This document shows positions 6,451 through 41,377 of a DNA stretch of 48,985 nucleotides, in pieces (the stretch's first letter is position 1; each line of letters starts with the position of its first letter). The position numbers and the translations under genes are program-made. The DNA lies in the NCBI GenBank assembly GCA_020630915.1, contig JAHDIF010000011.1, positions 1-48,985 of the forward strand, written 5' to 3'. The notes beneath the pieces are model-generated. The model saw only the letters and a list, made by a program, of their open reading frames with translations, searched no databases and was not told the origin of the DNA. Source of the stretch: Dokdonia sp. GTDB lineage: Bacteria > Bacteroidota > Bacteroidia > Flavobacteriales > Flavobacteriaceae.

Positions 6451-7926
6451 ATGAGTATTTTATCGCTAATCACTCACCTAACCCCTGAAGAAAACACCGC
6501 TTTTAAGGCATACTTACGCTCTAAAAACAAAAGATCAGACACAAAAAATTTAGAGCTTTATACGCTCCTTAGAAAGAACACACCCCTTAAAAATATAGAC
6601 ATTGCATTATATGGAAAACCTAATCGCAATGCCTATCACGCATTATCAAAAAGGCTTCAAGACGCCTTGATAGATTTTATCGCCACACGCAATTTCCAGA
6701 CAGAAACTTCTGATGATATGCACGTCTTTAAATGGATACTCACCTCTCGCATTCTGTACGAACAAAACCAACCCAAAGTCGCTCAAAAAGTGCTGAAGAA
6801 AGCTACCCAGAAAGCACTAGAGCTCAACCTATATACCGCCCTTACAGAAAGCTATCACACACAATGGCAGTACAGCCATCTTCATCCAGACGTAGACTTA
6901 GATATACTTACAAAAGCCACAGAAGAAAACCAGCGTCGCTTTATACAACAAGAACAACTCAATATGGCCTACGCTCACATTAAAAGAGCGTTGGTCTTTA
7001 ACGAAGCGCTTCTCAAAAAAGGGATACAGCCTACCGTAGAAGAAATACTCAACAGCTTTAACATCACAATCAATGAGACCTTTAGCTTTAAGTCCTTCTT
7101 TCAACTCTTAGAAATTATCAATAAAGCGGCACATCTGGATCATAACTTTATCCAAGCACTTCCGTTCATCAAGCATACGTATAGACTCATAAAGAATAAA
7201 AAAATTATCCTAGAGAAAGAGCGTTTTTACCACATACAGGTTCTCTATTTTATGGCAAATGCTCATTTTAGAGTGCGTAATTTTGATCAAGCGAGTCATT
7301 ACCTCTCCTTAATGAAAGAAGAAATGAGCCTTAACAACGAGAAGTGGGAATCCCGCTTTCGCGAAAGCTACCTCCTCATCAATTCTTTTATTGCAAACTA
7401 TTCTGGATACGCCCAGAATGCAATCTCAGAAATAGAATCTCATATCTCTAGCTTAAAGAAACAACAGCCCGATCCAGATCTCGTTATGGCACTGGTTGTT
7501 TTTTACACGCAGCAAGAATTATATAAAAAGGCGCTTACCACCCTTAATTTACTCAAACATACAGACGCTTGGTATGAGGAAAGACTAGGTAAGGATTGGG
7601 TGATAAAGAAAGACCTGACAGCCCTAATCATTTACTACGAGCTAGAATATATAGACCTTGTAAACTCCCAGTTACGACGTTTTAAAAGGAGCTACAAATC
7701 CATTATCAATACAGAAGTACGACTCAAGCGCTTTATAGGCATTTTTACAAAAATCTTTAACAACCCTAGTGTGGTGGGAGAAGACCGCTTTCGCGAAAGC
7801 GTAAAAACCCAATTCACCACCAACTCACTAGCCCAAGAAGATATCTTCATGTTAAGCATTTTTGCGTGGATAAAAGCCAAACTCAATGGTTCAAAAATTT
7901 ATGAAACCACCCTTGCCTTGTTGTGA
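6451..7926 (+). CDS. Large alpha-helical (TPR-like) protein of unknown function
   Basis: I do not recognise this 491-residue protein beyond its helical-repeat nature. It is soluble and basic, lacks a signal peptide and has helix pairs of TPR-like spacing from about residue 90 to 400 (for example [25 protein letters not shown] near 260-290). The N-terminal 75 residues ([19 protein letters not shown]) look like a small separate domain. Such proteins are often scaffolds. Two copies of the GCTTTCGCGAAAGC palindrome lie inside the gene, both read as RFRES. The intergenic region to yiaA (6300-6450) is strongly AT-rich and probably holds both promoters. Confidence 0.75.
7355..7368. repeat. Iterated palindrome GCTTTCGCGAAAGC, copy 1
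   Basis: Perfect 14-bp palindrome inside the helical-repeat gene, read as RFRES. Confidence 0.9.
7787..7800. repeat. Iterated palindrome GCTTTCGCGAAAGC, copy 2
   Basis: Perfect copy, 432 bases after copy 1 in the same gene and the same reading frame; again read as RFRES. Confidence 0.9.
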
Positions 7927-7987
7927 TTTTCTTAACACCTAAAAAGCAATATGGTCTGTACCTTGAGGGCACTAAAAATCAAACCAA

Positions 7988-10468: not shown

Positions 10469-10490
10469 GACAAGGACCTTAATTAATTTA

Positions 10491-10524
10491 AAAGCTGACT
10501 ACCAAAAGATAGTCAGCTTTTTTT
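10491..10524 (+). terminator. Rho-independent terminator of the metalloprotease gene
   Basis: AAAGCTGACTA (10491-10501) pairs with TAGTCAGCTTT (10510-10520) over 11 bp with an 8-base loop, followed by a T-run to 10524. Confidence 0.88.
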
Positions 10525-10577
10525 ATGGGTTAATATTGTGACCTCTTCTTTTATGCTTAAGACTTATTTATGAGGGC

Positions 10578-10591
10578 GCTTTCGCGAAAGC
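10578..10591. repeat. Iterated palindrome GCTTTCGCGAAAGC, copy 3
   Basis: Perfect intergenic copy. Flanking bases extend it to CGCTTTCGCGAAAGCG. Confidence 0.9.
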
Positions 10592-10602
10592 GTACTACAT
10601 AA

Positions 10603-12709: not shown

Positions 12710-13525
12710 CTAATAACCACTTTCAAAAGGCTGCACATATAATACTTGCCCTTCAAAGATTTCGTCTCCGTCAAGACTATTTATTTTCTTAAGATCCTCT
12801 ACACTAATATTGTATTTCTTAGAAAGGCGGTACAATGTCTCACCTTTTTTGACCGTATGCTGGTCTTTTTTATCTACTACTTTTCTATAATCACTTTCCT
12901 CTTTACCAAGTACTTCACCGTCATATCTATACAATTGATACTTCTCTACAATACGAATTAATTTATCTGGATATTTCTTGTCAGTTGCATAACCAGCGGC
13001 TCTTAGTCCTTTTGCCCAGCCCTTATAATCATCTTTAGGCAACTTAAAGAGACTCGAATAACGACCTCTGTTCGTTAGAAATAACGAGTGGTCACGGTAT
13101 GAGAATTTAGGAAGGCTGTACTTTCTAAAACACTCTCCTTTTTCATCATCATCATGATATACTGTGGCTCCTTTCCAGTCGTGACACTTAATCCCAAAAT
13201 GATTATTAGCCTTCTTTACCAGCTCTCCGTTACCGGCTCCAGATTCTAAAACACCTTGTGCTAAGGTAATACTCGCCGGTATTCCATATTGTCGCATTTC
13301 TTCTTGAGCGATAGCCGCATATTCTTGTACATAAGCACTCACATTATCTTTAGGTATAGAAGGAACGATAGTCGTTTCATCCTCAGACGTAGTGTCTGAT
13401 TTGTTTACTGATGAAGTGACTGTTGTATCTGGGTTAGTTTTTGAATTCTGAGAGATCTTTTTACTCCCTCCGCAACTAGTTATAAGAAAACCAGTGATCA
13501 TTATAAGTAATAAGCGCATTTTCAT
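12710..13525 (-). CDS. Glucosaminidase-LysM lipoprotein (peptidoglycan hydrolase)
   Basis: The protein has 271 residues with a lipobox at LITSCGG (Cys about 17), then a Ser/Thr-rich linker. Residues about 65-205 form a glucosaminidase domain with the catalytic glutamate region ITLAQGVLESGAGNGEL and NHFGIKCHDW. Residues about 222-267 are one LysM domain (HTVKKGETLYRLSKKYNIS), which binds peptidoglycan. It should cleave the N-acetylglucosamine-MurNAc backbone as an outer-membrane- or periplasm-anchored autolysin. It overlaps the upstream enzyme gene by 4 bases (ATGA), so translation of the two is probably coupled. Confidence 0.9.
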   Translation of the reverse strand: MKMRLLLIMITGFLITSCGGSKKISQNSKTNPDTTVTSSVNKSDTTSEDETTIVPSIPKDNVSAYVQEYAAIAQEEMRQYGIPASITLAQGVLESGAGNGELVKKANNHFGIKCHDWKGATVYHDDDEKGECFRKYSLPKFSYRDHSLFLTNRGRYSSLFKLPKDDYKGWAKGLRAAGYATDKKYPDKLIRIVEKYQLYRYDGEVLGKEESDYRKVVDKKDQHTVKKGETLYRLSKKYNISVEDLKKINSLDGDEIFEGQVLYVQPFESGY

Positions 13526-14436
13526 TCTGTATACTGTATTAGTGGAAGGCCTTTTTGCAGGAGTTTCTTATTCATCCCTTCTATTCCTTGTAGACCCCCA
13601 GTATGGATTGCTAAAATACGAGTATTTGACGGAAAATACCCTTTAGAAATTAGATCTAAAACACCCAACATCATCTTACCCGTATAGACAGGATCCAACA
13701 AAATATTGTGCTTCTTTTGAAAGTTATTTATAAAGCTTATGAGTACTGCATCCATCTTTGCATACCCACCCAAATGATACTCAGACATCAATTCCCAATT
13801 TGTTTTTGAAGTCCACTTTTTAATTTCATCTGAAAGAAAACCTCCTTTTAATGCAGGAAAACCAAGTACTTTCTGTTGCACCCCAGATGATTCTATTATT
13901 CCGCTTATGGTTCCTCCTGTACCAACTGGACAGCATATGTAATCAAAATTTGCTCCATGACCATCCAAAATTTCTGCACAACCCTGTACGGCGAGTTTGT
14001 TCGTCCCTCCTTCAGGAATCAGGTAAGCATCCGGATACGCTTTTAACAATGGCCTTTTAAATTCATCAGTATCTTTATCTCGATAGGCTGATCTTGAGAC
14101 AAATACAAAATCCATCCCGTGATCTCGTGCACTTGATAAGGTGGGATTTTGAGCCAATGTCTTTTCGAGATCAACACCTAACTCTTCGCCTCGTATGACT
14201 CCAATTGTCTTAAAACCTTCCAAAGAACCCGCAATAGCAGTCGCCGCAATATGATTAGAATAGGCTCCTCCAAAAGTAATAAGGGTTTTGTAAGAGTTTG
14301 CTTTCGCGAAAGCAAGATTATACCGCAACTTTCTATATTTGTTACCTTGTATTTGAGGATGCACCAAGTCTTCTCTTTGTATGCACAAAGTCACATCATA
14401 CGGAAGGGAAATCTCTTGGATTAAATTTACAGACAT
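13522..14436 (-). CDS. PLP-dependent ACC deaminase/D-cysteine desulfhydrase family enzyme
   Basis: I take the start at ATG 14436 (304 residues, MSVNLIQEIS); the longer frame to 14568 overlaps the upstream gene and has no family similarity. It belongs to fold-type II PLP enzymes. Lys33 in QGNKYRKLRY should bind the cofactor; FGGAYSNHIAATA (about 55-67) and the glycine-rich phosphate loop PVGTGGTISGI follow. Relatives deaminate 1-aminocyclopropane-1-carboxylate or desulfhydrate D-cysteine; I cannot separate these by sight. Its start lies 25 bases after the HEXXH gene, and its stop overlaps the glucosaminidase start. One iterated palindrome (14300-14313) encodes AFAKA in it. Confidence 0.85.
   Translation of the reverse strand: MSVNLIQEISLPYDVTLCIQREDLVHPQIQGNKYRKLRYNLAFAKANSYKTLITFGGAYSNHIAATAIAGSLEGFKTIGVIRGEELGVDLEKTLAQNPTLSSARDHGMDFVFVSRSAYRDKDTDEFKRPLLKAYPDAYLIPEGGTNKLAVQGCAEILDGHGANFDYICCPVGTGGTISGIIESSGVQQKVLGFPALKGGFLSDEIKKWTSKTNWELMSEYHLGGYAKMDAVLISFINNFQKKHNILLDPVYTGKMMLGVLDLISKGYFPSNTRILAIHTGGLQGIEGMNKKLLQKGLPLIQYTE
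14300..14313. repeat. Iterated palindrome GCTTTCGCGAAAGC, copy 4
   Basis: Perfect copy inside the ACC-deaminase-like gene, read on the minus strand as AFAKA. With flanking bases the symmetry reaches 18 bp (TTGCTTTCGCGAAAGCAA). Confidence 0.9.
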
Positions 14437-14461
14437 ATGTACACCAAAGGTACTTTGAGAT

Positions 14462-14788
14462 TTACAAAAAACGCATAAAACTCCACAACTTCTTATCCTT
14501 GAGATAGGTAAGATCTTCTTCATTTGCATAGGCCTCTCTCTCAAAAGAGATATTGCGATAGGCCACATACCAATTTTTATACTGTATGAGTCTTGCCAAA
14601 TATTCCAAGCCGTACCATACGAAAAAAGGAAGGATGAGCATCTCGAGCTGCTGCCGTAAATGAATACGCTCGTGATTGATAAAGACAGGGTCTGTCTTGA
14701 GACCTTTATGCTTCATCACAATAAAAGGCCACAAAGTGATCCCCACAAACCGATTACGCAGTAAATATTTATTAACTACTAAAAGCAT
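14462..14788 (-). CDS. Small membrane-associated HEXXH protein, unnamed family
   Basis: I do not recognise a named family. The 108-residue protein contains HERIH (His39-Glu40-His43), which fits the zinc-binding HEXXH motif, followed by RQQLEML and a hydrophobic stretch (about 50-68, ILPFFVWYGLEYLARL). A conserved-looking SFEREAYANEED near 80-91 offers Glu82/Glu84 as a possible third ligand, as in gluzincin-type peptidases. It is the first gene of the four-gene operon (next start 25 bases on). It may be a minimal peptidase or only a structural relative; activity is inference. Confidence 0.7.
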   Translation of the reverse strand: MLLVVNKYLLRNRFVGITLWPFIVMKHKGLKTDPVFINHERIHLRQQLEMLILPFFVWYGLEYLARLIQYKNWYVAYRNISFEREAYANEEDLTYLKDKKLWSFMRFL

Positions 14789-15206: not shown

Positions 15207-17192
15207 ATGACTTTTAAAGAAGAACTATTACAAGGAATCCCTTCAGAACTTCCTACTCTTAAACCATACGACCCAGAAGTTAATCACGCGCCAAAGCGTA
15301 AAAAAATCCTTTCGCAAGAAGAAGAGCAACTCGCCTTGCGCAATGCCCTTCGGTATTTTAACCCAAAGCATCACGCTACGCTCTTGCCAGAATTTAAAGA
15401 AGAGCTAGACACCTATGGCCGTATTTATATGTACAGGTACAGACCTGACTATACAATATATGCCAGACCTATAAGTGAGTATCCAGGCCAGAGCGAGCAA
15501 GCCAAAGCCATTATGCTCATGATCCAGAATAACCTAGATCACGCAGTGGCACAACACCCTCACGAACTCATCACCTACGGTGGTAATGGAGGCGTTTTTA
15601 GCAATTGGGCACAGTACAGACTCACAATGCAATACCTCGCTCAAATGAATGATGAGCAAACGCTGGTCATGTATTCTGGGCATCCGTTAGGTTTATTTCC
15701 TTCTCATAAGGAGGCTCCACGTGTGGTGGTAACTAATGGAATGATGATTCCTAACTATAGCCAGCCTGACGACTGGGAGAAATTTAATGCCCTAGGCGTT
15801 ACTCAATATGGGCAAATGACAGCGGGTAGCTATATGTACATTGGCCCGCAAGGTATTGTGCACGGAACGACAATCACGGTACTCAATGCCTTTAGAAAAA
15901 TAGGTAAGTCTCCTAAAGGTGGACTCTTTGTTACCTCCGGATTGGGGGGAATGAGTGGCGCTCAGCCCAAAGCTGGGAACATCGCAGGATGTGTGACGGT
16001 GTGTGCAGAAGTAAACCCAAAGGCTGTGCATACCAGACATTCTCAAGGCTGGGTAGATATAGTTATTAAAGATACAGACACCCTTGTCACTCGTGTAAAA
16101 AAAGCCCTAGACCAAAAAGAAACCGTATCGATCGCCTACCAAGGGAATGTGGTAGAAGTCTGGGAAGCCTTTGATACACATAACATTCATATAGATATCG
16201 GTAGTGACCAGACATCACTTCATAACCCTTGGGCAGGAGGATATTATCCTATGGGCTATACCTTTGAGGAGGCAAACCATATGATGGCAAATGATGTAGA
16301 ACGCTTTCGCGAAAGCGTAAAAAGCACCCTTAGACGCCATGCCGCAACTGTAAATGCTCATACTGCAAAAGGCACTTACTTCTTTGATTACGGGAATGCT
16401 TTTTTACTCGAAGCCTCTCGATCGGGAGCAGATATTCTAGCCGAAAATGGCATCGACTTTAAATACCCTAGTTACGTGCAAGACATTATGGGACCTATGT
16501 GTTTTGACTACGGGTTTGGCCCCTTTAGATGGGTTTGTGCCTCTGGAGATCCACAAGATTTAGAAAAAACAGATGCGATAGCGTGTGAAGTTTTAGAACG
16601 ACTCGCCCTTAATGCCCCTCCAGAAATCCAGCAGCAAATGCAAGACAACATCCAGTGGATTAAAGGAGCACAAGAAAATAAACTCGTGGTAGGTTCTCAA
16701 GCTCGTATTCTGTATGCAGATGCTCAAGGACGCATGGAAATAGCAAAAGCTTTTAATGATGCGATCGCTAGTGGCACGATAGGTTCTGTAATATTGGGAC
16801 GTGACCATCACGACGTTTCTGGAACAGATTCTCCATATAGAGAAACGAGTAATATTTACGACGGAAGTAGATTTACGGCAGATATGGCTATACATAATGT
16901 GATAGGCGATAGTTTTAGAGGAGCTACGTGGGTAAGCATTCACAATGGTGGAGGTGTTGGATGGGGAGAGGTTATAAATGGTGGTTTTGGTATGGTTATT
17001 GATGGTAGTAAAGAAGCCGAAAGACGCTTACAATCAATGCTTTTCTGGGATGTAAATAACGGAATTGCAAGACGCAATTGGGCAAGAAACCAAGGAGCCA
17101 TTTTTGCCATAAAACGCGCGATGGAAAGTGAGCCAAATCTTAAGGTAACGATACCAAATATTGTAGAAGACAAGTTATTTAGTAACGAATAA
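15207..17192 (+). CDS. hutU: Urocanate hydratase (long form)
   Basis: The 661-residue protein is a urocanase of the long type found in Bacteroidetes and in eukaryotes, about 100 residues longer than the proteobacterial enzyme. It uses tightly bound NAD+ to hydrate urocanate to imidazolone propionate in histidine breakdown. Typical patterns are ITYGGNGGVFSNWAQYRL (about 124-141), YSGHPLGLFPS, TSGLGGMSGAQPKA (about 244-257) and MGPMCFDYGFGPFRWV with Cys432, which is the best candidate for the family's conserved cysteine. No hutH, hutI or hutG lies nearby, so this gene is split from the rest of the pathway. Palindrome copy 5 encodes RFRES at about 366-370. Confidence 0.96.
   Translation: MTFKEELLQGIPSELPTLKPYDPEVNHAPKRKKILSQEEEQLALRNALRYFNPKHHATLLPEFKEELDTYGRIYMYRYRPDYTIYARPISEYPGQSEQAKAIMLMIQNNLDHAVAQHPHELITYGGNGGVFSNWAQYRLTMQYLAQMNDEQTLVMYSGHPLGLFPSHKEAPRVVVTNGMMIPNYSQPDDWEKFNALGVTQYGQMTAGSYMYIGPQGIVHGTTITVLNAFRKIGKSPKGGLFVTSGLGGMSGAQPKAGNIAGCVTVCAEVNPKAVHTRHSQGWVDIVIKDTDTLVTRVKKALDQKETVSIAYQGNVVEVWEAFDTHNIHIDIGSDQTSLHNPWAGGYYPMGYTFEEANHMMANDVERFRESVKSTLRRHAATVNAHTAKGTYFFDYGNAFLLEASRSGADILAENGIDFKYPSYVQDIMGPMCFDYGFGPFRWVCASGDPQDLEKTDAIACEVLERLALNAPPEIQQQMQDNIQWIKGAQENKLVVGSQARILYADAQGRMEIAKAFNDAIASGTIGSVILGRDHHDVSGTDSPYRETSNIYDGSRFTADMAIHNVIGDSFRGATWVSIHNGGGVGWGEVINGGFGMVIDGSKEAERRLQSMLFWDVNNGIARRNWARNQGAIFAIKRAMESEPNLKVTIPNIVEDKLFSNE
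16303..16316. repeat. Iterated palindrome GCTTTCGCGAAAGC, copy 5
   Basis: Perfect copy within hutU, read as RFRES. Flanks extend the symmetry to ACGCTTTCGCGAAAGCGT. Confidence 0.9.
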
Positions 17193-20487: not shown

Positions 20488-21015
20488 TTAGTAAATACTT
20501 ACCTCACGGCGTGGCACATCACTATCGTGATAACGTTCTATACATTTTGCCACTATATCTTTTGCTTCATCTACATTTCCCCATCCGCCTACATCTACTT
20601 TTTTCTCTTCAAGATCTTTATACACTTGAAAGAAATGTTCGATTTCTTTAATAAGGTGTTGGTTCAATTCTGGAAGATCATTTACTCTACTTGCAATAGG
20701 ATCACTCACAGGTACACAAATTACTTTTTCATCTGGTCCTTTCTCATCTGCCATATGGAATACACCTATAGGCTTTACTTCAATCACGCAGCCAGGAAAA
20801 GTGGGCTCTGTTACCAATACAAGAACGTCTAATGGATCACCATCTAGCGCTAGCGTTTCTGGCACAAAACCATAATCTGCAGGGTACATCATAGAAGAAA
20901 ATATCATACGGTCGTATCGTATCTTCTTCAACTCAAAATCGTACTCATACTTGTTACGACTTCCCTTAGGAATCTCTATCAGTACGTCAAATGTTTTAAC
21001 TTTATCTGCTGTCAT
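20488..21015 (-). CDS. ppa: Soluble inorganic pyrophosphatase (family I)
   Basis: Read from ATG 21015 the protein has 175 residues, the normal family length; an ATG at 21024 adds three residues and is an equal alternative. The frame is open to 21129, but that extension encodes a translated repeat and is not part of the protein. Family I motifs are clear: LIEIPKGSRNKYEYDF, MMYPADYGFVPETLALDGDPLDVLVL with the Asp triad, and KVICVPVSDP. It hydrolyses cytoplasmic PPi to drive biosynthesis. The membrane pyrophosphatase gene follows downstream, so both PPi-removing enzymes sit side by side. A good promoter lies about 175 bases upstream. Confidence 0.96.
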   Translation of the reverse strand: MTADKVKTFDVLIEIPKGSRNKYEYDFELKKIRYDRMIFSSMMYPADYGFVPETLALDGDPLDVLVLVTEPTFPGCVIEVKPIGVFHMADEKGPDEKVICVPVSDPIASRVNDLPELNQHLIKEIEHFFQVYKDLEEKKVDVGGWGNVDEAKDIVAKCIERYHDSDVPRREVSIY

Positions 21016-21049
21016 ATACCTCATCTTTTTTTCTTTATCGCTGCGCTCT

Positions 21050-21112
21050 CCCTGTAGTCGTGAACCTTGCCTACCGGCAGGCGGGTCTCGCAAGCTCGAT
21101 TTCGCGAAAGCG
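21050..21112. repeat. GC-rich repeat element in the ppa leader, with degenerate iterated palindrome
   Basis: This block is far richer in G+C than its surroundings. It holds the near-palindrome CCTACCGGCAGG (about 21070-21081), followed by CGGGTCTCGCAAGC and then ATTTCGCGAAAGCG, a degraded copy of the iterated palindrome (about 21099-21112). Translated, part of it gives PAGRQG, a peptide I recognise from many Bacteroidetes repeat insertions. It lies in the untranslated leader of ppa and is probably a dispersed REP-like element. Confidence 0.6.
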
Positions 21113-21190
21113 CCATTCAAAACAACCACAACGATTTTATTATCAAATAGTTACTACTCGAAAATAGCTTCAAAAGTCATTTTCGGGCTG

Positions 21191-23853: not shown

Positions 23854-23867
23854 GCTTTCGCGAAAGC
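23854..23867. repeat. Iterated palindrome GCTTTCGCGAAAGC, copy 6
   Basis: Perfect intergenic copy, one base from the pdhB stop codon. Flanks extend the symmetry to ACGCTTTCGCGAAAGCGT. Confidence 0.9.
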
Positions 23868-23868: not shown

Positions 23869-24846
23869 TTATTTGTACATTACTTTTTTAACAGCTTTTA
23901 TAACATCTCCACTATTAGGCAACCACTCTTCCAGTAATACTGGTGAGTATGGTGCAGGAGTATCTGCCGTGTTGATTTTTATGATAGGAGCATCTAGGTA
24001 GTCAAAAACTTGCTCTTGTACTTGGTAGGTAATCTCTGTTGCTACGTTACCAAAAGGCCACGCCTCTTCAAGAATAACCAGCCTATTAGTTTTTTTAACC
24101 GAATCCATAATCGTCTTATGATCCATAGGACGCACGGTTCTCAAATCTATAATCTCGCAAGAGATACCTTCTTTTGCGAGCTCATCTGCAGCTTTGTAAG
24201 CTTCTTTAATAATTTTTCCAAAAGAAACGATGGTTACATCTGTTCCTTCTCTTTTGATATCTGCAACACCTATAGGTAACACATATTCTCCATCTGGCAC
24301 TTCTCCTTTATCACCATACATTTGCTCTGATTCCATAAATATTACGGGATCGTTATCTCTTATGGCAGCTTTAAGCAATCCTTTTGCGTCATAAGGATTA
24401 GAAGGTACAATTACCTTAAGTCCAGGTGTGTTTGCAAACCAATTCTCAAAAGCTTGTGAATGTGTCGCGCCTAGTTGTCCTGCAGAAGCTGTAGGCCCTC
24501 TAAATACAATAGGACAAGAAAACTGCCCTCCAGACATCTGTCTGATTTTTGCGGCGTTGTTTATAATTTGGTCTATCCCTACCAGAGAGAAGTTAAAGGT
24601 CATATACTCAACAATAGGTCTACAACCTGTCATAGTACTCCCTACGCCTATCCCTCCAAAACCAAGCTCAGCAATAGGAGTATCTATCACTCTATCAGGT
24701 CCAAACTCATCTAACATACCTTTAGAAGCTTTATAAGCTCCATTATACTCCGCGACTTCTTCACCCATTAAATACACCGCAGCATCGCGGCGCATTTCTT
24801 CACTCATCGCCTCACAAACGGCTTCTCTAAATTGGATTGTTCTCAT
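23869..24846 (-). CDS. pdhB: Pyruvate dehydrogenase E1 component, beta subunit
   Basis: The 325-residue protein matches the beta subunit of the heterotetrameric pyruvate dehydrogenase E1. It binds thiamine diphosphate with the alpha subunit and makes acetyl-CoA from pyruvate together with E2 and E3. Typical patterns are MGEEVAEYNGAYKASKGM (about 27-44), DTPIAELGFGGIGVGSTM (about 55-72), GPTASAGQLGATHSQAFE and the C-terminal domain EEAWPFGNVATEI. The E1-alpha and E2 genes are not adjacent, which fits the split layout I expect in flavobacteria. It has its own promoter about 100 bases upstream. Confidence 0.95.
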   Translation of the reverse strand: MRTIQFREAVCEAMSEEMRRDAAVYLMGEEVAEYNGAYKASKGMLDEFGPDRVIDTPIAELGFGGIGVGSTMTGCRPIVEYMTFNFSLVGIDQIINNAAKIRQMSGGQFSCPIVFRGPTASAGQLGATHSQAFENWFANTPGLKVIVPSNPYDAKGLLKAAIRDNDPVIFMESEQMYGDKGEVPDGEYVLPIGVADIKREGTDVTIVSFGKIIKEAYKAADELAKEGISCEIIDLRTVRPMDHKTIMDSVKKTNRLVILEEAWPFGNVATEITYQVQEQVFDYLDAPIIKINTADTPAPYSPVLLEEWLPNSGDVIKAVKKVMYK

Positions 24847-25855: not shown

Positions 25856-26824
25856 ATGTCAGTATTAGTATATACAGAATCAGAAAATGGCACTTTCAAG
25901 AAAACAGCTTTTGAAGTAGCCTCTTATGCAAAAGGAATTGCAGAAATGATGGGGACTTCTGTCACCGCGATTTCCATAAATGCAAAGGATACAGATAGCC
26001 TTGGTACCTATGGTGTGGACAAGGTATTAAACGTGTCTAACGAACAATTAAACAGTTTTAATGCGTCCGCTTTCGCGAAAGCGATCTCGCAAGCAGCAAA
26101 AGCAGAAGATGCCAAAGTGGTTGTTTTGAGCCAAAGCGCAGATGCAAAATATCTTGCCGGATTGCTTTCTGTCCAATTGGAAGCTGGATATGCATCTAAT
26201 GTAGTAGCACTTCCTGAAAGTACAGCACCCTTTAAAGTAAAGCGTACTGCATTTACCAATAAAGCATTTAGTCATACAGAAATCAATACCGATGTTAAAA
26301 TAGTTGGACTTGGTAAGAATGCTTACGGTCTTAAAGAAACATCGGGTGCAGCAGCAGCCGCATCTTTCGAACCTTCTTTGAGCGATGGAGACTATGGTGT
26401 GCAAGTGCAATCTGTGGATAGAGCAACAGACAAAGTATCTATTGCAGATGCAGAGATAGTCGTATCTGCAGGTCGCGGTCTTAAAGGACCAGAAAACTGG
26501 GATATGATAGAAGAAATGGCAGAAATTCTTGGAGCGGCAACTGCTTGTTCTAAACCGGTTTCTGACTTAGGATGGAGATCTCACGGAGAGCACGTAGGGC
26601 AAACTGGAAAACCAGTAGCCTCTAACTTATACATTGCAATTGGTATCTCTGGAGCGATACAGCACCTTGCAGGAGTAAACTCTTGTAAAGTAAAAGTAGT
26701 AATCAACAACGATCCTGAAGCCCCTTTCTTTAAAGCAGCAGATTATGGGATTGTAGGAGATGCTTTTGAAGTAGTTCCAGAACTCAATGAAAAACTACGC
26801 GCTTTTAAAGCAGCGAACTCATAG
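25856..26824 (+). CDS. etfA: Electron transfer flavoprotein, alpha subunit
   Basis: The 322-residue protein is a full-length ETF-alpha. The N-terminal half forms the ETF fold, and the C-terminal FAD domain is clear: IVVSAGRGLKGPENWDMIEE (about 199-218), GWRSHGEHVGQTGKPV (about 241-256), YIAIGISGAIQHLAGV and VINNDPEAPFF. FAD is bound here for electron transfer. It directly follows etfB. Palindrome copy 7 (26069) is read as AFAKA in the less conserved N-terminal half. Confidence 0.96.
   Translation: MSVLVYTESENGTFKKTAFEVASYAKGIAEMMGTSVTAISINAKDTDSLGTYGVDKVLNVSNEQLNSFNASAFAKAISQAAKAEDAKVVVLSQSADAKYLAGLLSVQLEAGYASNVVALPESTAPFKVKRTAFTNKAFSHTEINTDVKIVGLGKNAYGLKETSGAAAAASFEPSLSDGDYGVQVQSVDRATDKVSIADAEIVVSAGRGLKGPENWDMIEEMAEILGAATACSKPVSDLGWRSHGEHVGQTGKPVASNLYIAIGISGAIQHLAGVNSCKVKVVINNDPEAPFFKAADYGIVGDAFEVVPELNEKLRAFKAANS
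26069..26082. repeat. Iterated palindrome GCTTTCGCGAAAGC, copy 7
   Basis: Perfect copy in etfA, read as AFAKA at residues 72-76. Confidence 0.9.
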
Positions 26825-26875: not shown

Positions 26876-28543
26876 TTATGGTTCTTGTACAATAAGAATA
26901 AAGCCATCTTCTATAGTCTCACCCCTGAGTTGGATGTTATCCTTAGGGTAAGGTGTACAAGGCAATTGATGGTAAAAACAATTTGCGCTGGTTATTGGGA
27001 CGAAATAATCAAAATTAGTTTCTATCGTTTTAGTCTCGACCTTAGTCATTGCCGATGGAAACAGCCCATATTCCGGTAACTTTAAAATCATAAAAACACC
27101 AGCCCCAACTGCTAGTGCAAATCCTATAAATTTACGTACCACAGCATTAAAAGGCTTGTCAATTAATGTGCCAACCCAAGTCCTTAAAAAGGAAATCTTT
27201 GCAAAAAGCTCTGCAAAAACGAGCGCTGTCCCAATAATTAAAAACCCATAAGCAAAACGCACATCTGGAGCCTTTACAAACCAGAAAATGATACTTGCTA
27301 AGATCACTAGTAGTACATTAGTGCGATATCCATTTTTAAAGTGCTTCACTGTCTGAATTGCTAGCACAATTTGCGAGCATACTGCGATTTTGTATACTAA
27401 TTTTAAATTCAAGAACCACACAGGAATCCATTCCCATAACTGCAATGCCAACACTTCTACATAATTTTTATTTGGAATTCTCGCCCAAGAAGTTATCCAG
27501 TTGCTCTCCAAAATCACCTTCTCTACTGGCAATTTCCAAACAACAGAAAAGACATCTATCGTAGCTAATGGAAATATGAGATATCCAGAGAGGTAGTAAT
27601 TCCGCACAAAGTAGGGTACTAAAATCACCAGCCCTACACTTGCAGTATATACCCAATACCTTATCTTATTTTTCAATAGAAACGGCAGTAGGACTAAAGC
27701 TAGAAATAGAGTGCTTAGTTTAAAAGTTATAGATAATAAAACAATACCAGTAACCACCACAAACACATTTATGGGAAGTGTGACAGAGGGGTTTTTGCGC
27801 ATATATCTTAAAACGAACACAACAAGTATCCCCGCAATCACATCGGGGCTAGGAGAATTGATATGCTTCTTCAAAAACAAAAAGCTAATAAGACTTACTA
27901 AAACAAGAAAGATCATCTCCTTTATGTTTTTTTCCTTGACAGCCCTTTTAATGTCATTATGTACACCTAATATCATCACAATAAAAGCAACACTATTTAA
28001 TGGGTACATAACAATGCTTTCGGAAGTAAAAAAAGGAGGTGGTTCAAAACTAAAAAGGGCACTTACTGGAAAAAACATAGAATTAAATGCAAACCTAAAA
28101 TGAAGATTCCCTAATCCGGGAACTACCTCAAAACTCCGAATCCACTTTATGTTTTGGCTATGATACAAAGCTGTATCAAAAGTTGCAATAGGCTTTATAA
28201 CGGTTAAGAGAACAAAACAAATTAAGGTAACTAGAAAAATCATTTCTAAGGACCTATAGGCTCTTATTTTAGATACGCTTTCGCGAAAGCGTATCCCTAT
28301 TTCATCTCTTATAAAAAATGCACATATTACAGTAAACAAGACAACACCTATTAGAAAAGTGCCATTAATTGGTACAATGATAGAACCATAAGAAGCTATT
28401 AAAGAAAATAAGCCAAAGCCCTCAAAAAAAATGAGCTCTAAAGACTGGAAAGCTCTAGATATCTTGAGCAACCTTATGATCACTAAGCCCAATACTGTGA
28501 TAAGCAGTGAAACAAATATCGATAAAAGTAGATAAGACAGCAT
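26876..28543 (-). CDS. Polytopic membrane protein, possibly LIC_10190-like (GT-C-like)
   Basis: The 555-residue protein has about twelve predicted membrane helices. Between helices 3 and 4 it has a conserved-looking external loop with FDTALYHSQNIKWIRSFE and VPGLGNLHFRFAFNS (about residues 120-155), and a C-terminal hydrophilic part of about 65 residues. This resembles the LIC_10190-type membrane proteins and the general GT-C glycosyltransferase layout, where an acidic residue in the first large loop is catalytic. No lipid-carrier or polysaccharide gene lies next to it. Family placement is tentative. Palindrome copy 8 is read as RFRES at about 90-94. Confidence 0.6.
   Translation of the reverse strand: MLSYLLLSIFVSLLITVLGLVIIRLLKISRAFQSLELIFFEGFGLFSLIASYGSIIVPINGTFLIGVVLFTVICAFFIRDEIGIRFRESVSKIRAYRSLEMIFLVTLICFVLLTVIKPIATFDTALYHSQNIKWIRSFEVVPGLGNLHFRFAFNSMFFPVSALFSFEPPPFFTSESIVMYPLNSVAFIVMILGVHNDIKRAVKEKNIKEMIFLVLVSLISFLFLKKHINSPSPDVIAGILVVFVLRYMRKNPSVTLPINVFVVVTGIVLLSITFKLSTLFLALVLLPFLLKNKIRYWVYTASVGLVILVPYFVRNYYLSGYLIFPLATIDVFSVVWKLPVEKVILESNWITSWARIPNKNYVEVLALQLWEWIPVWFLNLKLVYKIAVCSQIVLAIQTVKHFKNGYRTNVLLVILASIIFWFVKAPDVRFAYGFLIIGTALVFAELFAKISFLRTWVGTLIDKPFNAVVRKFIGFALAVGAGVFMILKLPEYGLFPSAMTKVETKTIETNFDYFVPITSANCFYHQLPCTPYPKDNIQLRGETIEDGFILIVQEP
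28277..28290. repeat. Iterated palindrome GCTTTCGCGAAAGC, copy 8
   Basis: Perfect copy in the membrane-protein gene, read as RFRES. The symmetry extends to 20 bp or more (TACGCTTTCGCGAAAGCGTA). Confidence 0.9.
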
Positions 28544-32226: not shown

Positions 32227-32240
32227 GCTTTCGCGAAAGC
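32227..32240. repeat. Iterated palindrome GCTTTCGCGAAAGC, copy 9
   Basis: Perfect intergenic copy between the preceding terminator and the thyA start codon, 17 bases before the ATG. Confidence 0.9.
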
Positions 32241-32257: not shown

Positions 32258-33082
32258 ATGCAACAGTATCACGATCTTATGCACCATGTAATGGAGCACG
32301 GAAATATGAAGGGGGATAGAACAGGAACAGGAACAAAAAGCGTTTTTGGGTATCAAATGCGTTTTAACCTAGCCGAAGGTTTCCCGATGGTTACCACAAA
32401 AAAGCTGCACCTGAAATCTATAGTTTATGAACTATTATGGTTTCTTAAAGGAGACACAAACATAGGATACCTGAAAGAAAATGGGGTGCGTATCTGGAAC
32501 GAATGGGCAGATGAGAATGGAGATCTTGGACCTGTTTACGGTCACCAGTGGCGTAACTGGAATAGCGAAAATCTTGACCAAATAAAAGAGGTTGTCAATA
32601 CGCTTAAAAACAACCCAAATAGTAGACGCATGCTAGTAAGCGCCTGGAATCCAAGCGTTATGCCAGATACGTCTGTAAGTTTTAGTGAGAATGTTGCAAA
32701 CGGGAAAGCGGCACTACCGCCCTGTCACGCCTTCTTCCAGTTTTACGTCGCAGATGGAAAATTGTCTTGCCAGCTATATCAAAGGAGTGCAGATATTTTT
32801 TTAGGAGTACCCTTTAACATTGCTAGTTATGCCCTGCTCACGATGATGATGGCACAAGTATGCGGTTATGAAGCGGGTGATTTTGTACACACCTTTGGGG
32901 ATGCGCATATATACAGTAATCACTTTGAGCAAGTAGAGCTTCAACTATCTAGAGAAATACGTAAATTACCCACGTTAAAAATAAATTCTGCGGTAAAAGA
33001 CATCTTTGGCTTCAAATTTGATGACTTTACTTTAGAAAATTACGATCCGCATCCTCACATTAAGGGAGCAGTTGCGGTTTAA
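32258..33082 (+). CDS. thyA: Thymidylate synthase
   Basis: The 274-residue protein is a ThyA-type thymidylate synthase, about ten residues longer than the E. coli enzyme because of a small insert before the active site. The catalytic nucleophile is Cys156 in [23 protein letters not shown] (about 21-31), [16 protein letters not shown] and [12 protein letters not shown] (with the folate/dUMP contact residues) are intact. It makes dTMP from dUMP and methylene-tetrahydrofolate, producing dihydrofolate, which the product of folA 2.6 kb downstream reduces. An iterated palindrome lies in its leader. Confidence 0.97.
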
Positions 33083-34130: not shown

Positions 34131-35213
34131 CTATAAAGTGCAATCAAGTACCTTTAAAAGAACATTTAAATCGTCTTGAGTATTAAAATAATGAAAGCCT
34201 ACCCGTATACCATCTCCTCGTTCTATGCATAGAATATCATTTTCGCGCAAGCGTTTGTAAAGTACACGATCACCTTTAAGGTTAAAAATGTTACTGTGAC
34301 CTTTACGACCTACTACTGCATCTTCTAGAAGTCCTCTTTCTATAAAAGCACTTCTTGCCTCCTCAGAAAGTTCTTTTATAGACTGGTCAATTGTGCTCAT
34401 ACCAACCTCCTTTATAAGATCTATGGCAGCACCCAGACTGCCGTAGTTTAATGTGTCTTGGTGCCCAGGCTCAAAACGCCCTATAAAGCTTCCTTCTTGT
34501 GGTTTGTATTTTCCTTGTAGAGAGTTAAAACCAGTGGTTTTGGGATCGCCGTAGGCTGCAACGCGCTCTTTAAACATAAACAGGCCGTTACCATAACCAG
34601 CATTCATCCATTTATAGGTGCTGGCCCCTATCACATCCAGTGCTGAGTTCTCAAAATCAAAGACCTCTGTCCCTAAATATTGCGTGCCATCTGCAAAGAA
34701 TAGCGTTTCTGGATAGGCAGTTTTTAATTTCTTGAGAAAGTCTTGATCTATCTTGATACCATTAATCCATTGCACCATAGAAAACGCAAATATATTGGGT
34801 TGCGCTTTCGCGAAAGCGGCCTCCACAGCACTCTCCAATTCTGCATCTATTGTCACATACGTTATATCAAACTCACGAGATGTAAAAGGCCAGTTTAAAG
34901 ATGGATAATCTTGCTCTAGCAACAATACTTTTTGAGTTCTTGGAATTCCTTCTAATAAGGTATTAAAGCCGTAGGAAAAATTAGGAGTAAGAGCTACTCG
35001 ATTAGGAGCACAATTAAATAATGTCCCCACCTTCTCCCGTACCTCTGTAAGTACTTCTGCCTGTTTCATTTTAAGCATGCTCCCCATTACAAAAAAATCC
35101 AAATCGTGATTATGGCGCCACTGCAATACAGGCTCAGGAAGTAATCCGCTAGCTGGAGTGTTCAAGTAGGTGTACTGATTTGTGATAGGAAAGTATTTTT
35201 TATAAATAGACAT
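34131..35213 (-). CDS. Class V PLP-dependent aminotransferase family protein (IscS/SufS-like fold)
   Basis: The 360-residue protein belongs to fold-type I, aminotransferase class V. The PLP lysine is Lys201 in GASTYKWMNAGYGNGLFM, with FFADGTQYLG (about 172-181) as the cofactor Asp region. It lacks an obvious active-site Cys loop of cysteine desulfurases, so it is more likely a selenocysteine-lyase-like or isopenicillin-epimerase-like member of unknown substrate. It is single and divergent from the 2TM gene at 35266. Palindrome copy 10 is read as AFAKA at about 133-137, outside the active site. Confidence 0.85.
   Translation of the reverse strand: MSIYKKYFPITNQYTYLNTPASGLLPEPVLQWRHNHDLDFFVMGSMLKMKQAEVLTEVREKVGTLFNCAPNRVALTPNFSYGFNTLLEGIPRTQKVLLLEQDYPSLNWPFTSREFDITYVTIDAELESAVEAAFAKAQPNIFAFSMVQWINGIKIDQDFLKKLKTAYPETLFFADGTQYLGTEVFDFENSALDVIGASTYKWMNAGYGNGLFMFKERVAAYGDPKTTGFNSLQGKYKPQEGSFIGRFEPGHQDTLNYGSLGAAIDLIKEVGMSTIDQSIKELSEEARSAFIERGLLEDAVVGRKGHSNIFNLKGDRVLYKRLRENDILCIERGDGIRVGFHYFNTQDDLNVLLKVLDCTL
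34804..34817. repeat. Iterated palindrome GCTTTCGCGAAAGC, copy 10
   Basis: Perfect copy in the class V aminotransferase gene, read as AFAKA on the minus strand. Confidence 0.9.
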
Positions 35214-37188: not shown

Positions 37189-37207
37189 ATAAGCTTAATT
37201 CTAGTGT

Positions 37208-37669
37208 TTAGTGATCAGTAGCTTTTTTAAGCTTGTCTGCTCCTGTTTCCACAGCTTCTCCTGCTTTGTTTACAGCACTATCTGCAGCATCTTTTACTGC
37301 ATCTCCTGCTTTGTTCACAGCATCACCTGCAGCATCTACTGCATTGCCAGCAGCATCTTTTACAGCGTCTCCTGCCTTAGTTGCCGCATCACCTGCAGCA
37401 TCTACCGCCTCTCCTGCAGCGTCTACAGCGTTTCCTGCAGCATCTTTTACTGCATTTCCTGCAGCATCCACAGCATTTCCTGCAGCATCCACAGCATTTC
37501 CTGCAGCATCGCCAGCCGCGTCTACCGCATCTCCAGCAGCATCTGCAGCACTATTTGCAGCATTTTCCACTGCGTTTCCAGCCTCTGCAGCCTTGTCTTG
37601 TACTTCTCTACAAGAAGAGATACTCACTACCATAGCTAAAGCAGCTATTCCTAACATTAATTTTTTCAT
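37208..37669 (-). CDS. Ala-rich heptad-repeat lipoprotein (LEA-like)
   Basis: The 153-residue protein has a lipobox at SISSC (Cys19). Residues about 22-150 are made of 7- and 11-residue units such as DAAGNAV, DAAGDAV and KAGDAVKDA, repeated more than a dozen times. The pattern predicts one long amphipathic helix, as in late-embryogenesis-abundant (LEA)-like and apolipoprotein-like proteins. A role in envelope stress or desiccation protection is possible, but this is inference. Repeats are also recent at the DNA level (tandem copies around 37430-37510), so length may vary between strains. It is monocistronic. Confidence 0.8.
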   Translation of the reverse strand: MKKLMLGIAALAMVVSISSCREVQDKAAEAGNAVENAANSAADAAGDAVDAAGDAAGNAVDAAGNAVDAAGNAVKDAAGNAVDAAGEAVDAAGDAATKAGDAVKDAAGNAVDAAGDAVNKAGDAVKDAADSAVNKAGEAVETGADKLKKATDH

Positions 37670-37784
37670 AATTGATTTCTGTTTTGATAATTTAGATTAG
37701 ATGTGTTAAAATTATGATATTATTTTTGGCTTTTACCATTGCTAGTAGAAAAATCTCTTTTAATCGATAAAAAGCACGTATTAC

Positions 37785-37798
37785 GCTTTCGCGAAAGC
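37785..37798. repeat. Iterated palindrome GCTTTCGCGAAAGC, copy 11
   Basis: Perfect intergenic copy between the divergent repeat-lipoprotein and S24-regulator genes. Confidence 0.9.
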
Positions 37799-37890
37799 AA
37801 ATTCAGCAAATTTCTAACAAATAGTTACTTTATTTATACGCTATACATTTCTATCTGGATCTTAAGCCATAAAAATATTACAAAATTTGA

Positions 37891-37905
37891 TAGGAAATAT
37901 TCCTA
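37891..37905. promoter_or_regulatory. Operator-like palindrome before the S24 regulator
   Basis: TAGGAA-ATA-TTCCTA is a perfect 6-bp inverted repeat with a 3-base centre, 19 bases before the regulator's ATG at 37925. This is a natural place for an autoregulatory operator of a LexA/CI-type repressor. Binding is inferred. Confidence 0.5.
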
Positions 37906-37924
37906 ATTTTCATAAATTTACCAT

Positions 37925-38695: not shown

Positions 38696-39348
38696 TGGGA
38701 TTTACAGATCTTTATGATTTTCTAGAACGTTTACGACAAAACAATTCGAAGGAATGGATGGACGACCATCGTAAAGAATACAAAGCCGTACGCACATTCT
38801 TCGTTGGCTGGTTAGACGAGTTGAATGCAAAACTGGCAAAAGTAGATCCACTCTACTTTGACACGCCTGGCAAAAAAGGTATTAATAGGATCAATAATAA
38901 CTTGATGTTTTATCCCAATAAGCCCGTCTATAAGGATCATTTTGGCGCTGGATTGGATCAACTAACCAAGCAAGGTGATTTTTACGTAGAAATAGGTCTT
39001 AAACAAAATTTACTCGCAGGAGGTTACTGGCGTCCAGAGAAAAACACGTTACGAAGTATACGTGATGCTATTGATTACAACGGCGAAGAGCTTAGAGCTA
39101 TTCTTGAAAAACCTTCTTTTAAAAAGACGTTTAACGGATTGTATGAAGATAACCCTTTAAAAACAGCCCCTAAAGGTTTTTCTAAAGAGCATCCTCAGAT
39201 AGACCTCTTGCGTCATAAAACTTTTGGGGCAGAAACAGTATTAGAAAGAAAACAGGTACTCGACCCTAATTTTCAAGAGTATTGTGTGGAGGTGTATCTA
39301 GAACTTTTACCCTTTAGAAGATATTTGCGAAAAGCGGTAAGTGTTTAG
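38695..39348 (+). CDS. DUF2461 (TIGR02453) protein
   Basis: The 217-residue protein matches DUF2461 over nearly its full length: LYDFLERLRQNNSKEWMDDH at the start, then RINNNLMFYPNKPVYKDHFG (about 64-83) and GGYWRPEKNTLRSIRDAID (about 105-123). It is cytoplasmic and of unknown function. Its start overlaps the stop of the S24 regulator gene by one base (TAATG), so the two are translationally coupled; this may link it to the regulator's stress response. It converges with the peptidase gene with only 2 bases between stop codons. Confidence 0.87.
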   Translation: MGFTDLYDFLERLRQNNSKEWMDDHRKEYKAVRTFFVGWLDELNAKLAKVDPLYFDTPGKKGINRINNNLMFYPNKPVYKDHFGAGLDQLTKQGDFYVEIGLKQNLLAGGYWRPEKNTLRSIRDAIDYNGEELRAILEKPSFKKTFNGLYEDNPLKTAPKGFSKEHPQIDLLRHKTFGAETVLERKQVLDPNFQEYCVEVYLELLPFRRYLRKAVSV

Positions 39349-39350
39349 GT

Positions 39351-40142
39351 CTAGAATACTTGTATGTGTATATGATCATCATGTCTTACTGCTCTGCATC
39401 CATGATATCTTAATTTAGGGTGTTTGAGAGACATTCGTGTTCGTAAGTGTGGCTCAATGAATATTTTAGAGATACTTCTTTCTGTAAGTAAGGCAAGAAG
39501 CAACTCTTTGGTTGCATTTTCGGACATTTTTAAATCACTGTACATACTTCCTAATGTTAGATATTTAGGAAAATCATACTGCCAATATCCTTTGTCCTTA
39601 CAAACCTCTATTTGATCATACTCACCAGACTTCGGGCTTTCAAAAATACCATAGCCACTTCTAGATGGCTTTTGATTTACTATCTGATTATTCTTGTCTT
39701 TGTAAATGAGTGAGATATCCAGCTTCTTTCCGTCATTGTGACTTAAATGAGGTACTAATGGGAAACCATCCCAGAAAGGAAAATTTGCGTCTAAACAGTG
39801 AATCTCAATATCTTGGTAAGACCTGCCTAATGTAAGGGACACATCGTCTAGAACAGTATTAATTTCTGGCACTACATAGTTACGATTAGACAATGTGGTT
39901 AAAAACATATGAACCTTTACCCGCTTATTTGTTTTAATCCGTTCTCTTCCAAAATGAGGTGCAATAAATGGTACTATTAAAAAAGTTGCAATTAGATAAA
40001 TTATACTAAAACCTATAAGTTGTTTTCTCCTGCTTTTTCTAAAAATGAGATGGGTTATTAAGAAGAGAATACCGCCTATTTGTGTAAGTGCCGTGAGAAG
40101 GCACACTGCTAAAAGGACTAAGGTAGAATTCAAAAACCTCAT
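39351..40142 (-). CDS. Membrane-anchored LAS-type (MepA/M15-like) metallopeptidase candidate
   Basis: I do not recognise a named family, but the 263-residue protein has two N-terminal membrane helices (about 8-32 and 43-62) and a soluble domain with a LAS-superfamily zinc site: LSHNDGKKLDIS gives His135 and Asp142, and the C-terminal HDDHIHIQVF gives His257 and His259. The spacing HxxxxxxD...HxH is that of D-Ala-D-Ala/MepA-type peptidoglycan peptidases. The domain should face the periplasm. Its start overlaps the waaA stop by 4 bases, so it is co-translated with a lipopolysaccharide gene. Activity is inferred. Confidence 0.68.
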   Translation of the reverse strand: MRFLNSTLVLLAVCLLTALTQIGGILFLITHLIFRKSRRKQLIGFSIIYLIATFLIVPFIAPHFGRERIKTNKRVKVHMFLTTLSNRNYVVPEINTVLDDVSLTLGRSYQDIEIHCLDANFPFWDGFPLVPHLSHNDGKKLDISLIYKDKNNQIVNQKPSRSGYGIFESPKSGEYDQIEVCKDKGYWQYDFPKYLTLGSMYSDLKMSENATKELLLALLTERSISKIFIEPHLRTRMSLKHPKLRYHGCRAVRHDDHIHIQVF

Positions 40143-41377
40143 GAATCCCTATTAAGATACTCCATAACACTCTCCGTCGCCCCTGTGTTGCTATTAATAA
40201 AATGACCAGCAATCATTCCAGTTTGTGTTCTAAATTTTACATCCACTAATAGCTTAGATAAAATCTTATCAAACTCATCTTGATTGTTTACTGCATATAA
40301 CCCAGCGAGCTGTCTTAATCGTATGGCTTCTGGAAATTTATCTAAATGACTTCCCGTAATTATAGGCACTCCAAAGGTTGCTGGTTCTAAAATATTATGC
40401 AAGCCTGTACCTCCCATAGCGCCTCCTACATAAGCAATATGCGCATAACTGTATGCCTTAGCCAGTATCCCTATGGTATCTAGTATAAGTACATTACAGT
40501 CCGTAAGAGTCGTATTTTCTCTTTCAGAATACAATACGGTATTCACTTTTAAGCGTTGTTTTAATGGAGCAATTTTATCTGCTCGTATCTCGTGGGGTGC
40601 AATTATAAATTTGGCATCGCCCTTTTGATTATTGATAAATGAAACAATTATTTCATCGTCTTCTGGCCACGTACTCCCGCACACCACACAAAGTGAATTT
40701 TGAGTAAATTCTTCCAGAAAATCTAAGGTGTTATCCATTTCAATCTGTCTCGAAACACGATCAAATCGCGTATCACCACTTACTACTTGATTATCAAAAC
40801 CTAGCGTGGTTAGTATTTTTGATGACGAGACATCTTGTAGAAAGAAATATTCAAAAGCGCTTAATGTTTTCGTCATCCACTTACCATACCATTTAAAAAA
40901 TGGTTGCTGCGTTCTAAACACTCCCGAAAGTAAGTATGTTCGTATACCTCTTCTCGCTAGCTCAGAAAGATAATTGGGCCAAAATTCATATTTAATAAAA
41001 AATGCCATATCTGGTTGCACGAGGTCTACAAACTTTCGTGCATTAGACGGCGTATCTAGGGGAAGATATGTGGTCGCTTTCGCGAAAGCGTTAGCCTTCT
41101 TAATCTCATAACCAGACGGTGAAAAAAATGTAATAACTAATTGATGCTCTGGAAAGTGCTTTTGCATAGCTTCCATCACAGGCACGCCTTGCTCATACTC
41201 ACCCAGTGAAGCTGCGTGAAACCAAATGACTGGTGTATCTTTTAACAGAGAATGCTCCAATTGTGCAAAAACATCTCTACGTCCATTTACAAAAAGACGC
41301 ATCTTACTGCTAAAGAGACTACTCGCTGGCAATAGCTTTTCGAGAATGATTATAGCAAGATTATATAAGAAATGCAT
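40139..41377 (-). CDS. waaA: 3-deoxy-D-manno-octulosonic acid (Kdo) transferase
   Basis: From ATG 41377 the protein has 412 residues, the normal WaaA/KdtA length; the open frame to 41464 runs into the divergent region and is unlikely. It has an N-terminal membrane anchor and the GT-B-fold signatures WFHAASLGEYEQGVPVM (with the proposed catalytic Glu) and FIKYEFWPNYLSEL; the nucleotide-sugar site includes GTGLHNILEPATFGVPIITG. It adds Kdo to lipid A at the inner membrane. Palindrome copy 12 is read as AFAKA. It is divergent from the sugar aminotransferase gene. Confidence 0.94.
   Translation of the reverse strand: MHFLYNLAIIILEKLLPASSLFSSKMRLFVNGRRDVFAQLEHSLLKDTPVIWFHAASLGEYEQGVPVMEAMQKHFPEHQLVITFFSPSGYEIKKANAFAKATTYLPLDTPSNARKFVDLVQPDMAFFIKYEFWPNYLSELARRGIRTYLLSGVFRTQQPFFKWYGKWMTKTLSAFEYFFLQDVSSSKILTTLGFDNQVVSGDTRFDRVSRQIEMDNTLDFLEEFTQNSLCVVCGSTWPEDDEIIVSFINNQKGDAKFIIAPHEIRADKIAPLKQRLKVNTVLYSERENTTLTDCNVLILDTIGILAKAYSYAHIAYVGGAMGGTGLHNILEPATFGVPIITGSHLDKFPEAIRLRQLAGLYAVNNQDEFDKILSKLLVDVKFRTQTGMIAGHFINSNTGATESVMEYLNRDS
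41076..41089. repeat. Iterated palindrome GCTTTCGCGAAAGC, copy 12
   Basis: Perfect copy in waaA, read as AFAKA on the minus strand. Confidence 0.9.

Follow-up and report, generated by a model that had tools for sequence, protein, structure and literature searches.

The stretch of DNA analysed here (the window, 48,985 nt) is taken from contig JAHDIF010000011.1 of a Dokdonia sp. genome (GCA_020630915.1), and its recurrent feature is a 14-bp perfect palindrome, GCTTTCGCGAAAGC, referred to below as the core. The core occurs in 12 perfect copies, all of which were found at the coordinates listed by an earlier sequence-only reading of the window. Eight are inside open reading frames (ORFs, called mechanically at a minimum of 100 aa) and four are between them, as had also been stated. 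The ORF at 6451-7926 (+) holds two copies (7355..7368 and 7787..7800), both read as RFRES, and the same reading applies at 16303..16316 in ORF 15207-17192 (+) and at 28277..28290 in ORF 26876-28543 (-). Those read as AFAKA are at 14300..14313 (ORF 13522-14568, -), 26069..26082 (ORF 25856-26824, +), 34804..34817 (ORF 34131-35213, -) and 41076..41089 (ORF 40139-41464, -). The intergenic copies are at 10578..10591, at 23854..23867 directly 3' of the ORF of a PdhB-like protein (23869-24846, -), at 32227..32240, 17 bp upstream of ORF 32258-33082 (+), and at 37785..37798. Around every copy in the window the extended site adds about 18 bp to each side of the core.

A scan of the window allowing up to two mismatches gave 15 matches, compared with a mean of 0.14 and a maximum of 1 in 100 dinucleotide shuffles of the same DNA. 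The three degenerate cores are those proposed previously, one of them displaced by a single base (21098, not 21099). This copy, GATTTCGCGAAAGC at 21098..21111 (one mismatch), falls within ORF 20488-21129 (-), a mechanical call, at its 5' end and probably upstream of the real start. The second, ACTTCCGCGAAAGC at 42831..42844 (two mismatches), lies in ORF 42657-43937 (+), and the third, GCTTTCGCGAAAGT at 46021..46034 (one mismatch), is located between ORFs 44016-45977 (-) and 46079-47035 (-).

The whole 2.97-Mb genome (18 contigs; G000 here) contains 685 perfect copies, a density of one per 4.3 kb, and the reversed-sequence control contains none. In a sample of 437,430 bases, consisting of the window and 20 other stretches and representing 15% of the genome, 96 copies were seen where a third-order Markov model expects 0.001, which bears out the claim that the copy number is far above expectation. 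Perfect copies in this sample outnumber one-mismatch copies 96 to 25. Apart from shorter and longer forms of the motif, no palindrome in the top lists of 10-16 bases exceeded 6 copies, and nine other 14-bp palindromes used as controls had no perfect copies in the rich sample. A search for other iterated palindromes in seven genomes of low-to-intermediate copy number (one stretch each; L062 was masked and gave nothing) found none of 12 bases or longer more than twice.

Among 397 Flavobacteriaceae genomes only six are rich in the motif, with 685, 857, 578, 664, 609 and 408 copies. The remaining 391 have 0-19 copies; 80 of the 397 have at least one, 74 of these having 1-19. By genus the rich genomes comprise two of g1 (taken as Dokdonia), three of g11 and one of g191 (G190, with 408 copies), and those sampled carry roughly one copy per 4-8 kb; G242 has 664. 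In a class-level set, which has some genomes in common with the family set, a copy was found in 24 of 395 genomes and only the window's own genome had more than 4. Such a very high, clade-limited copy number is a trait of uptake sequences. The sequence-only reading had named a genome count near expectation and a lack of conservation in close relatives as outcomes that would undo its claim; neither was found, and 857 copies are present in G206, which shares an identical PdhB gene with Dokdonia sinensis. Among the best 80 named loci, of at least 590 confirmed, those nearest to the window's PdhB-like protein are from Dokdonia. The core is present in two of the best 80 named PdhB loci, both Dokdonia, and the only recurrent 10- or 12-mer palindrome (at least three copies, at least four G or C) in the other 78 was AAAGCGCTTT in L108. 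One Dokdonia locus, L068, has 6 copies within 21 kb. A PdhB tree places g1 and g11 as sister genera (support 90/91), with G190 distant from both, near Aureitalea, and it is because of this placement that the trait is assigned to at least two separate lineages.

The full site is about 50 bp long and consists of the 14-bp core and two arms of about 18 bp. On either strand, C is scarce and G and T are abundant over the 18 bases immediately 5' of the core, in addition to a preference for TAC at -3 to -1. In flank tables that left out sites near the ends of stretches and repeated sites, the arm signal has mostly gone by about -19, with a slight deficit of C reaching about -30. In G000 the frequency of C is 0.06 at -4 to -10, 0.08 at -11 to -20 and 0.17 further out, at -31 to -60. 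The same trend is seen in G206, G010, G242 and G394, from only 21, 8, 6 and 6 sites respectively, and the arms of G190 (60 sites, 46% G+C) are weaker but occupy the same positions. Summed over -1 to -18 the information amounts to 3.98 bits in g1, 6.44 in g11 and 2.15 in G190. The extension of the symmetry to CGCTTT...AAAGCG, already pointed out from the window, is common: 59% of the half-sites in the own-genome sample have C at -1.

The preference for G and T within the arms peaks at -3/-4, -6/-7, -10 and -12/-13 and dips at -2, -5, -8 and -14/-15. This corresponds to a three-base rhythm, the period-3 power being above that of shuffles in each of three lineages (P 0.004-0.007, in a test chosen after the pattern had been seen). 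The arm profiles are correlated between g1 and g11 (r 0.87), g1 and G190 (0.79) and g11 and G190 (0.66). The pattern is equally strong in the 63 copies outside ORFs alone, and codons are therefore not its cause. Left and right arms show no excess of symmetric pairing at positions 1-24 (z -1.0 to 1.6; 2.4 at position 25), and this independence favours recognition of the DNA and disfavours a hairpin. An RNA hairpin or terminator was rejected on this absence of covariation, on the T-rich 5' side, which is the opposite of a terminator, and on Rfam, which gave no match for the window at gathering scores. The arms thus speak for a site that is recognised at the DNA level, not as RNA.

Copies lie outside ORFs more often than expected. 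In the own-genome sample 64 of the 96 are within mechanical ORFs and 32 outside, where 88% and 12% would be expected, and those within ORFs are read as AFAKA (35), RFRES (15) or LSRK (14). Their spacing is even: 101 gaps have a mean of 4.1 kb and a coefficient of variation (CV) of 0.51, compared with 0.91 ± 0.08 in simulations (minimum 0.67 over 5000). A single gap is shorter than 1 kb (21 expected), the shortest being the 432 bp from 7355 to 7787 in the window, and the longest is 10.5 kb (17.9 expected). For 44 further gaps, drawn from other rich genomes (among them G206 and G190, each with its first 10 listed sites), the CV is 0.62, matched by 0.04% of simulations, and one gap measures 17.9 kb. 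A wider sample of G190 (37 gaps) has a CV of 0.55 compared with 0.80 simulated, a value reached by 0.1% of simulations. Relatively even spacing, which is also a trait of uptake sequences, is therefore seen in both the own genome and G190. In 23 stretches of 20 kb from the single-contig genome G190 there are 1-5 copies each (mean 2.61, variance 1.25), so the sites do not pile up in that sample, and the earlier suggestion of a replication-associated mark is not borne out.

Even spacing without regional clustering in the G190 sample is also what would be seen if the motif were a chromosome-organising site, at which a dimer of an architectural or segregation protein bound the ~50-bp palindrome to give one anchor every few kb. 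An anchor needed at such intervals would lead selection to keep the spacing and not the position. Copies in phage contigs agree with this, as does a copy present in both G000 and G190 within the same short spacer between frames read as rpoB and rpoC (L032 at 8985; L286 at 8101). The patchy, two-lineage distribution would, however, need transfer or repeated loss, and gaps of 15-18 kb occur in G190. Known palindromic chromosomal protein sites of 13-16 bp (parS, Noc and matS) number in the tens and are regional, whereas the motif, palindromic as they are, has at least 10 times more copies (685) and is unclustered in the sampled single-contig genome. We know of no organising protein with some 700 sites of this length, and consider this explanation possible but rather unlikely.

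Comparison of related genomes shows that the core is conserved above its surroundings. G010 and G242 share 90.2% identity over 58 kb. Aligned DNA takes in 12 of the 16 sites of G010, 11 of them unchanged in G242, and 13 of the 20 sites of G242, 11 of them unchanged in G010. An identity of 0.902 over 14 positions would leave only 24% of cores unchanged. At 75% identity, all three aligned sites match in each direction between G242 and G394 (from 20 and 16 sites), and between the window and G206 two of three aligned window sites match (of 12) and two of two in reverse (of 20). These site numbers are small and the aligned DNA is biased toward conserved parts. The intergenic site at 23854 has a perfect copy in the D. 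sinensis DNA aligned with it (L065). The site at 26069 is kept in D. sinensis, and Dokdonia L068 reads GCCTATGCAAAAGC there, with four mismatches; neither of the two window sites aligned with L068 matches. The density of sites is thus kept and their positions can change.

A palindrome at very high frequency, in which perfect copies outnumber near copies, is what is known for the highly iterated palindromes (HIPs) of cyanobacteria. For the Synechocystis HIP1 10-mer the corresponding numbers are 5648 and 1830 in a table of PMC1939737, and HIP1 and alternate HIPs (Elhai 2015, PMC4390886) are like the motif in being highly iterated in and between genes with few near-misses. On the model that Elhai proposed for cyanobacteria, the motif would arise as a side effect of, or serve as the target for, an orphan DNA methyltransferase (acting for example at TCGCGA) together with biased mismatch repair. 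Across five methyltransferase Pfam families, the gene content of two rich genomes disfavours this model. G242 has no match to PF01555, PF00145 or PF02086, two strong matches to PF02384 (514 and 523 aa) and three weak ones to PF07669, one of them at a PF02384 place. G190 has one PF01555 match (a 641-aa frame), none to PF00145, PF02086 or PF02384, and one weak PF07669 match. Only the weak PF07669 matches (E 9e-6 to 6e-5) are thus common to both, and a methyltransferase clearly common to rich genomes was not found among these families, which makes a HIP-type mechanism unlikely. The extensions described for HIPs in Elhai 2015 (PMC4390886) are short and palindromic, and differ from the C-poor, 18-bp arms found here. 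The comparison with HIP1 made by the sequence-only reading therefore stands as a description of the kind of element, an iterated chromosomal palindrome, and is not supported as an account of a methylation-linked motif; we rate the mechanism as highly improbable.

The density of the motif, one per 4-5 kb, is near that of Chi in Escherichia coli, given as 1008 in 4.64 Mb in a table of PMC1939737. By this analogy the motif might be a palindromic, bidirectional Chi that tells the AddAB nuclease to stop degrading and to load RecA, its G/T-rich arms providing a good substrate for RecA. The three-base rhythm of the arms and the G/T-rich DNA 5' of the core recall the preference of RecA for TGG repeats or TG-rich DNA, as reported in PMC3763553, and an AddB-like PF12705 frame (900-941 aa) is present in all 16 genomes examined. 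Several observations oppose this. In a yardstick sample of E. coli K-12 (five stretches of 50 kb, 250 kb in total), Chi is randomly spaced (CV 0.98 compared with 0.97 ± 0.11; 71 sites, 66 gaps) and has no comparable local flank, and the TG-rich pattern near Chi spans thousands of bases (PMC3763553), not 18. In a tree of AddB the rich lineages are not grouped: the rich label needs 3 changes, and 21 of 500 shuffles were as low, as expected from close relatives. A second PF12705 frame, of AddA size, is found in 14 of 16 genomes, is unmatched in the rich genomes G010 and G242, and has stops in G394. Known Chi sequences are asymmetric, 5-8 nt long and read from one side, whereas the motif is a perfect palindrome of at least 14 bp with symmetric arms and even spacing. 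A Chi of the E. coli type was rejected on the spacing and flanks of the yardstick and on the lack of support from the AddB tree, and the palindromic variant we regard as unlikely.

Sites are also found in DNA that moves between genomes. A scan of viral contigs with a 16-mer gave 41 stretches, some of which are phage by gene content (PHROGs). L165 has a portal and a terminase, the latter 54.5% identical to the terminase of Winogradskyella phage Peternella_1, and L175 has a tape measure and a portal, the latter 35% like that of Cellulophaga phage phi39:1. Of two further proteins compared with PHROGs, one, from L152, matched a family of unknown function and the other, from L169, had no match. The viral-contig sites have the same arms (n=37; C 0.08 at -4 to -10), in a count that excluded loci above 50% G+C and near-duplicate flanks. 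The core is absent from the Persicivirga (Nonlabens) phages P12024S (L306) and P12024L (L329), whose host may not be of a motif-rich genus. A 32-nt site query against named phages and plasmids returned two chance-level records per collection (E 3 and 9), a search that shorter matches would escape. The hexamer TCGCGA is likewise missing from both P12024 phages. A low-order model expects about 2.6 in each and a maximal-order model 0.1 and 0, so that its avoidance is not established.

In the low-count genomes, 12 of 20 fetched loci (L005-L008, L010, L012, L015-L017, L019, L022 and L024) are a metal-efflux island by ORF reading, and the other eight hold other genes. Five proteins of L005 and L008 examined with Pfam give a resistance-nodulation-division (RND) pump, an outer-membrane efflux protein, a multicopper oxidase and a heavy-metal P-type ATPase. 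A parS-like cluster near the origin had been suspected from the clustered copies in these genomes, and was discarded when 12 of the 20 loci turned out to be the island. Across the 20 loci there are 43 copies, whose arms are of the rich type (C 0.08 at -4 to -10), and G160 and G215 have identical site spacing (933/10754/3991). The best interpretation of these copies is transfer out of a rich host. In L015 the outer-membrane efflux homologue of G101 (4036-5334, -) has an extra in-frame stretch in the signal region where its relatives read SAFAKAQ.

Phage contigs that carry sites with the same arms, together with two Persicivirga phages that carry none and the rarity of long gaps, are compatible with a mark by which a defence nuclease tells self from non-self, DNA without a site over many kb being degraded. 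No candidate system was identified, gaps of 15-18 kb are present in G190, and the host of the two phages may not belong to a motif-rich genus. Such a mark seems very doubtful.

No known signal among those compared accounts fully for the site. It appears that something in the cell reads it, most likely as a signal of self-DNA. We tentatively favour the reading that the motif is a DNA-level self-recognition signal, present once per few kb and most likely similar to an uptake sequence. DNA that bears the site would be read as self by a site-specific protein that works as a symmetric pair or approaches the palindrome from either side, and the likeliest setting would be natural transformation, with site-bearing fragments preferentially taken up or recombined. 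Biased uptake or recombination of this kind would, through molecular drive, fill gaps longer than a typical fragment and gain little from a second copy nearby, and in a palindromic signal the orientation of the site would, we propose, be irrelevant.

The uptake signal sequences (USS) of Pasteurellaceae and the DNA uptake sequences (DUS) of Neisseriaceae share with the motif hundreds of near-exact copies, restriction to a clade, a conserved core and recognition beyond that core. The distribution of USS is relatively even, the expected outcome of uptake-driven molecular drive according to PMC7811141, and for DUS PMC2397512 reports a spacing that matches conversion fragments, permissive locations and a conservation above that of average sequence. 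The even spacing, permissive placement and high core conservation of the motif resemble these properties and are counted in favour of an uptake-like signal. So are the signs of recognition at the DNA level, the turnover of positions seen with L068, which nevertheless has its 6 copies, the lack of the core in the two Persicivirga phages, and a ComEC-family gene in all 16 genomes examined.

Other observations weigh against such a signal. The ComEC-family gene is present in the 10 poor genomes as well as the six rich ones, so the gene content found does not single out the latter. A secretin-family match was obtained in only two of the six rich genomes (G000:C11:120161-120667 and G242:C8:124256-124753) and in none of the other 10, also a difference from USS and DUS systems. 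Uptake signals of Gram-negative bacteria are asymmetric and act through type IV pilus machinery, whereas the motif is palindromic with two long arms and occurs in Bacteroidota. Copies with the same arms are found in phage contigs and in transferred metal-efflux islands, and DUS are reported as absent from recently acquired genes in PMC2397512. Long gaps exist in G190 (17.9 kb, and 15.2 kb in the wider sample), where near-copies are also commoner (60 perfect, 23 one-mismatch). When proteins sampled from G190 were compared with those from g1 and g11, in samples covering a small part of each genome, only housekeeping-looking genes were found in common, and no candidate reader gene among them.

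Two further genes of the window encode repetitive proteins. That at 37208-37669 (-) predicts an Ala/Asp-rich, low-complexity protein with a lipoprotein-like start and AAGNAVDAAGDA units, and the opposite strand also holds a long open frame. The protein of 47097-48866 (-) is built of repeated DCDGDGVTNGDEI units, which we take to resemble calcium-binding repeats.

The core 14-mer GCTTTCGCGAAAGC was not found in the open-access literature searched, where TTTCGCGAAA occurs in 10 papers, incidentally to judge by titles, and among the titles listed from the same literature there was nothing on palindromes, uptake sequences or iterated motifs of this kind in Flavobacteriaceae, Bacteroidetes, Dokdonia or Nonlabens. 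D. donghaensis DSW-1 has been sequenced by PacBio (PMC4974333), in a paper whose main text lacks the terms methyl, modification and motif. The motif may represent an undescribed genome-wide self-marking site in Bacteroidota, a tentative proposal in which a ~50-bp palindrome with arms read in three-base steps would be held by selection or drive, moved between Flavobacteriaceae lineages with its putative reader, and stamped on resident phages and islands. It would then stand outside the USS/DUS, HIP, Chi and parS-like classes. For the family, the finding means that two or more separate lineages have a chromosome-wide iterated signal and apparently no methyltransferase in common. Since some Dokdonia strains are in culture, the function of such iterated sequences becomes testable. 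The site also serves as a practical barcode of horizontal transfer, as the metal-efflux islands in other genera still carry it.

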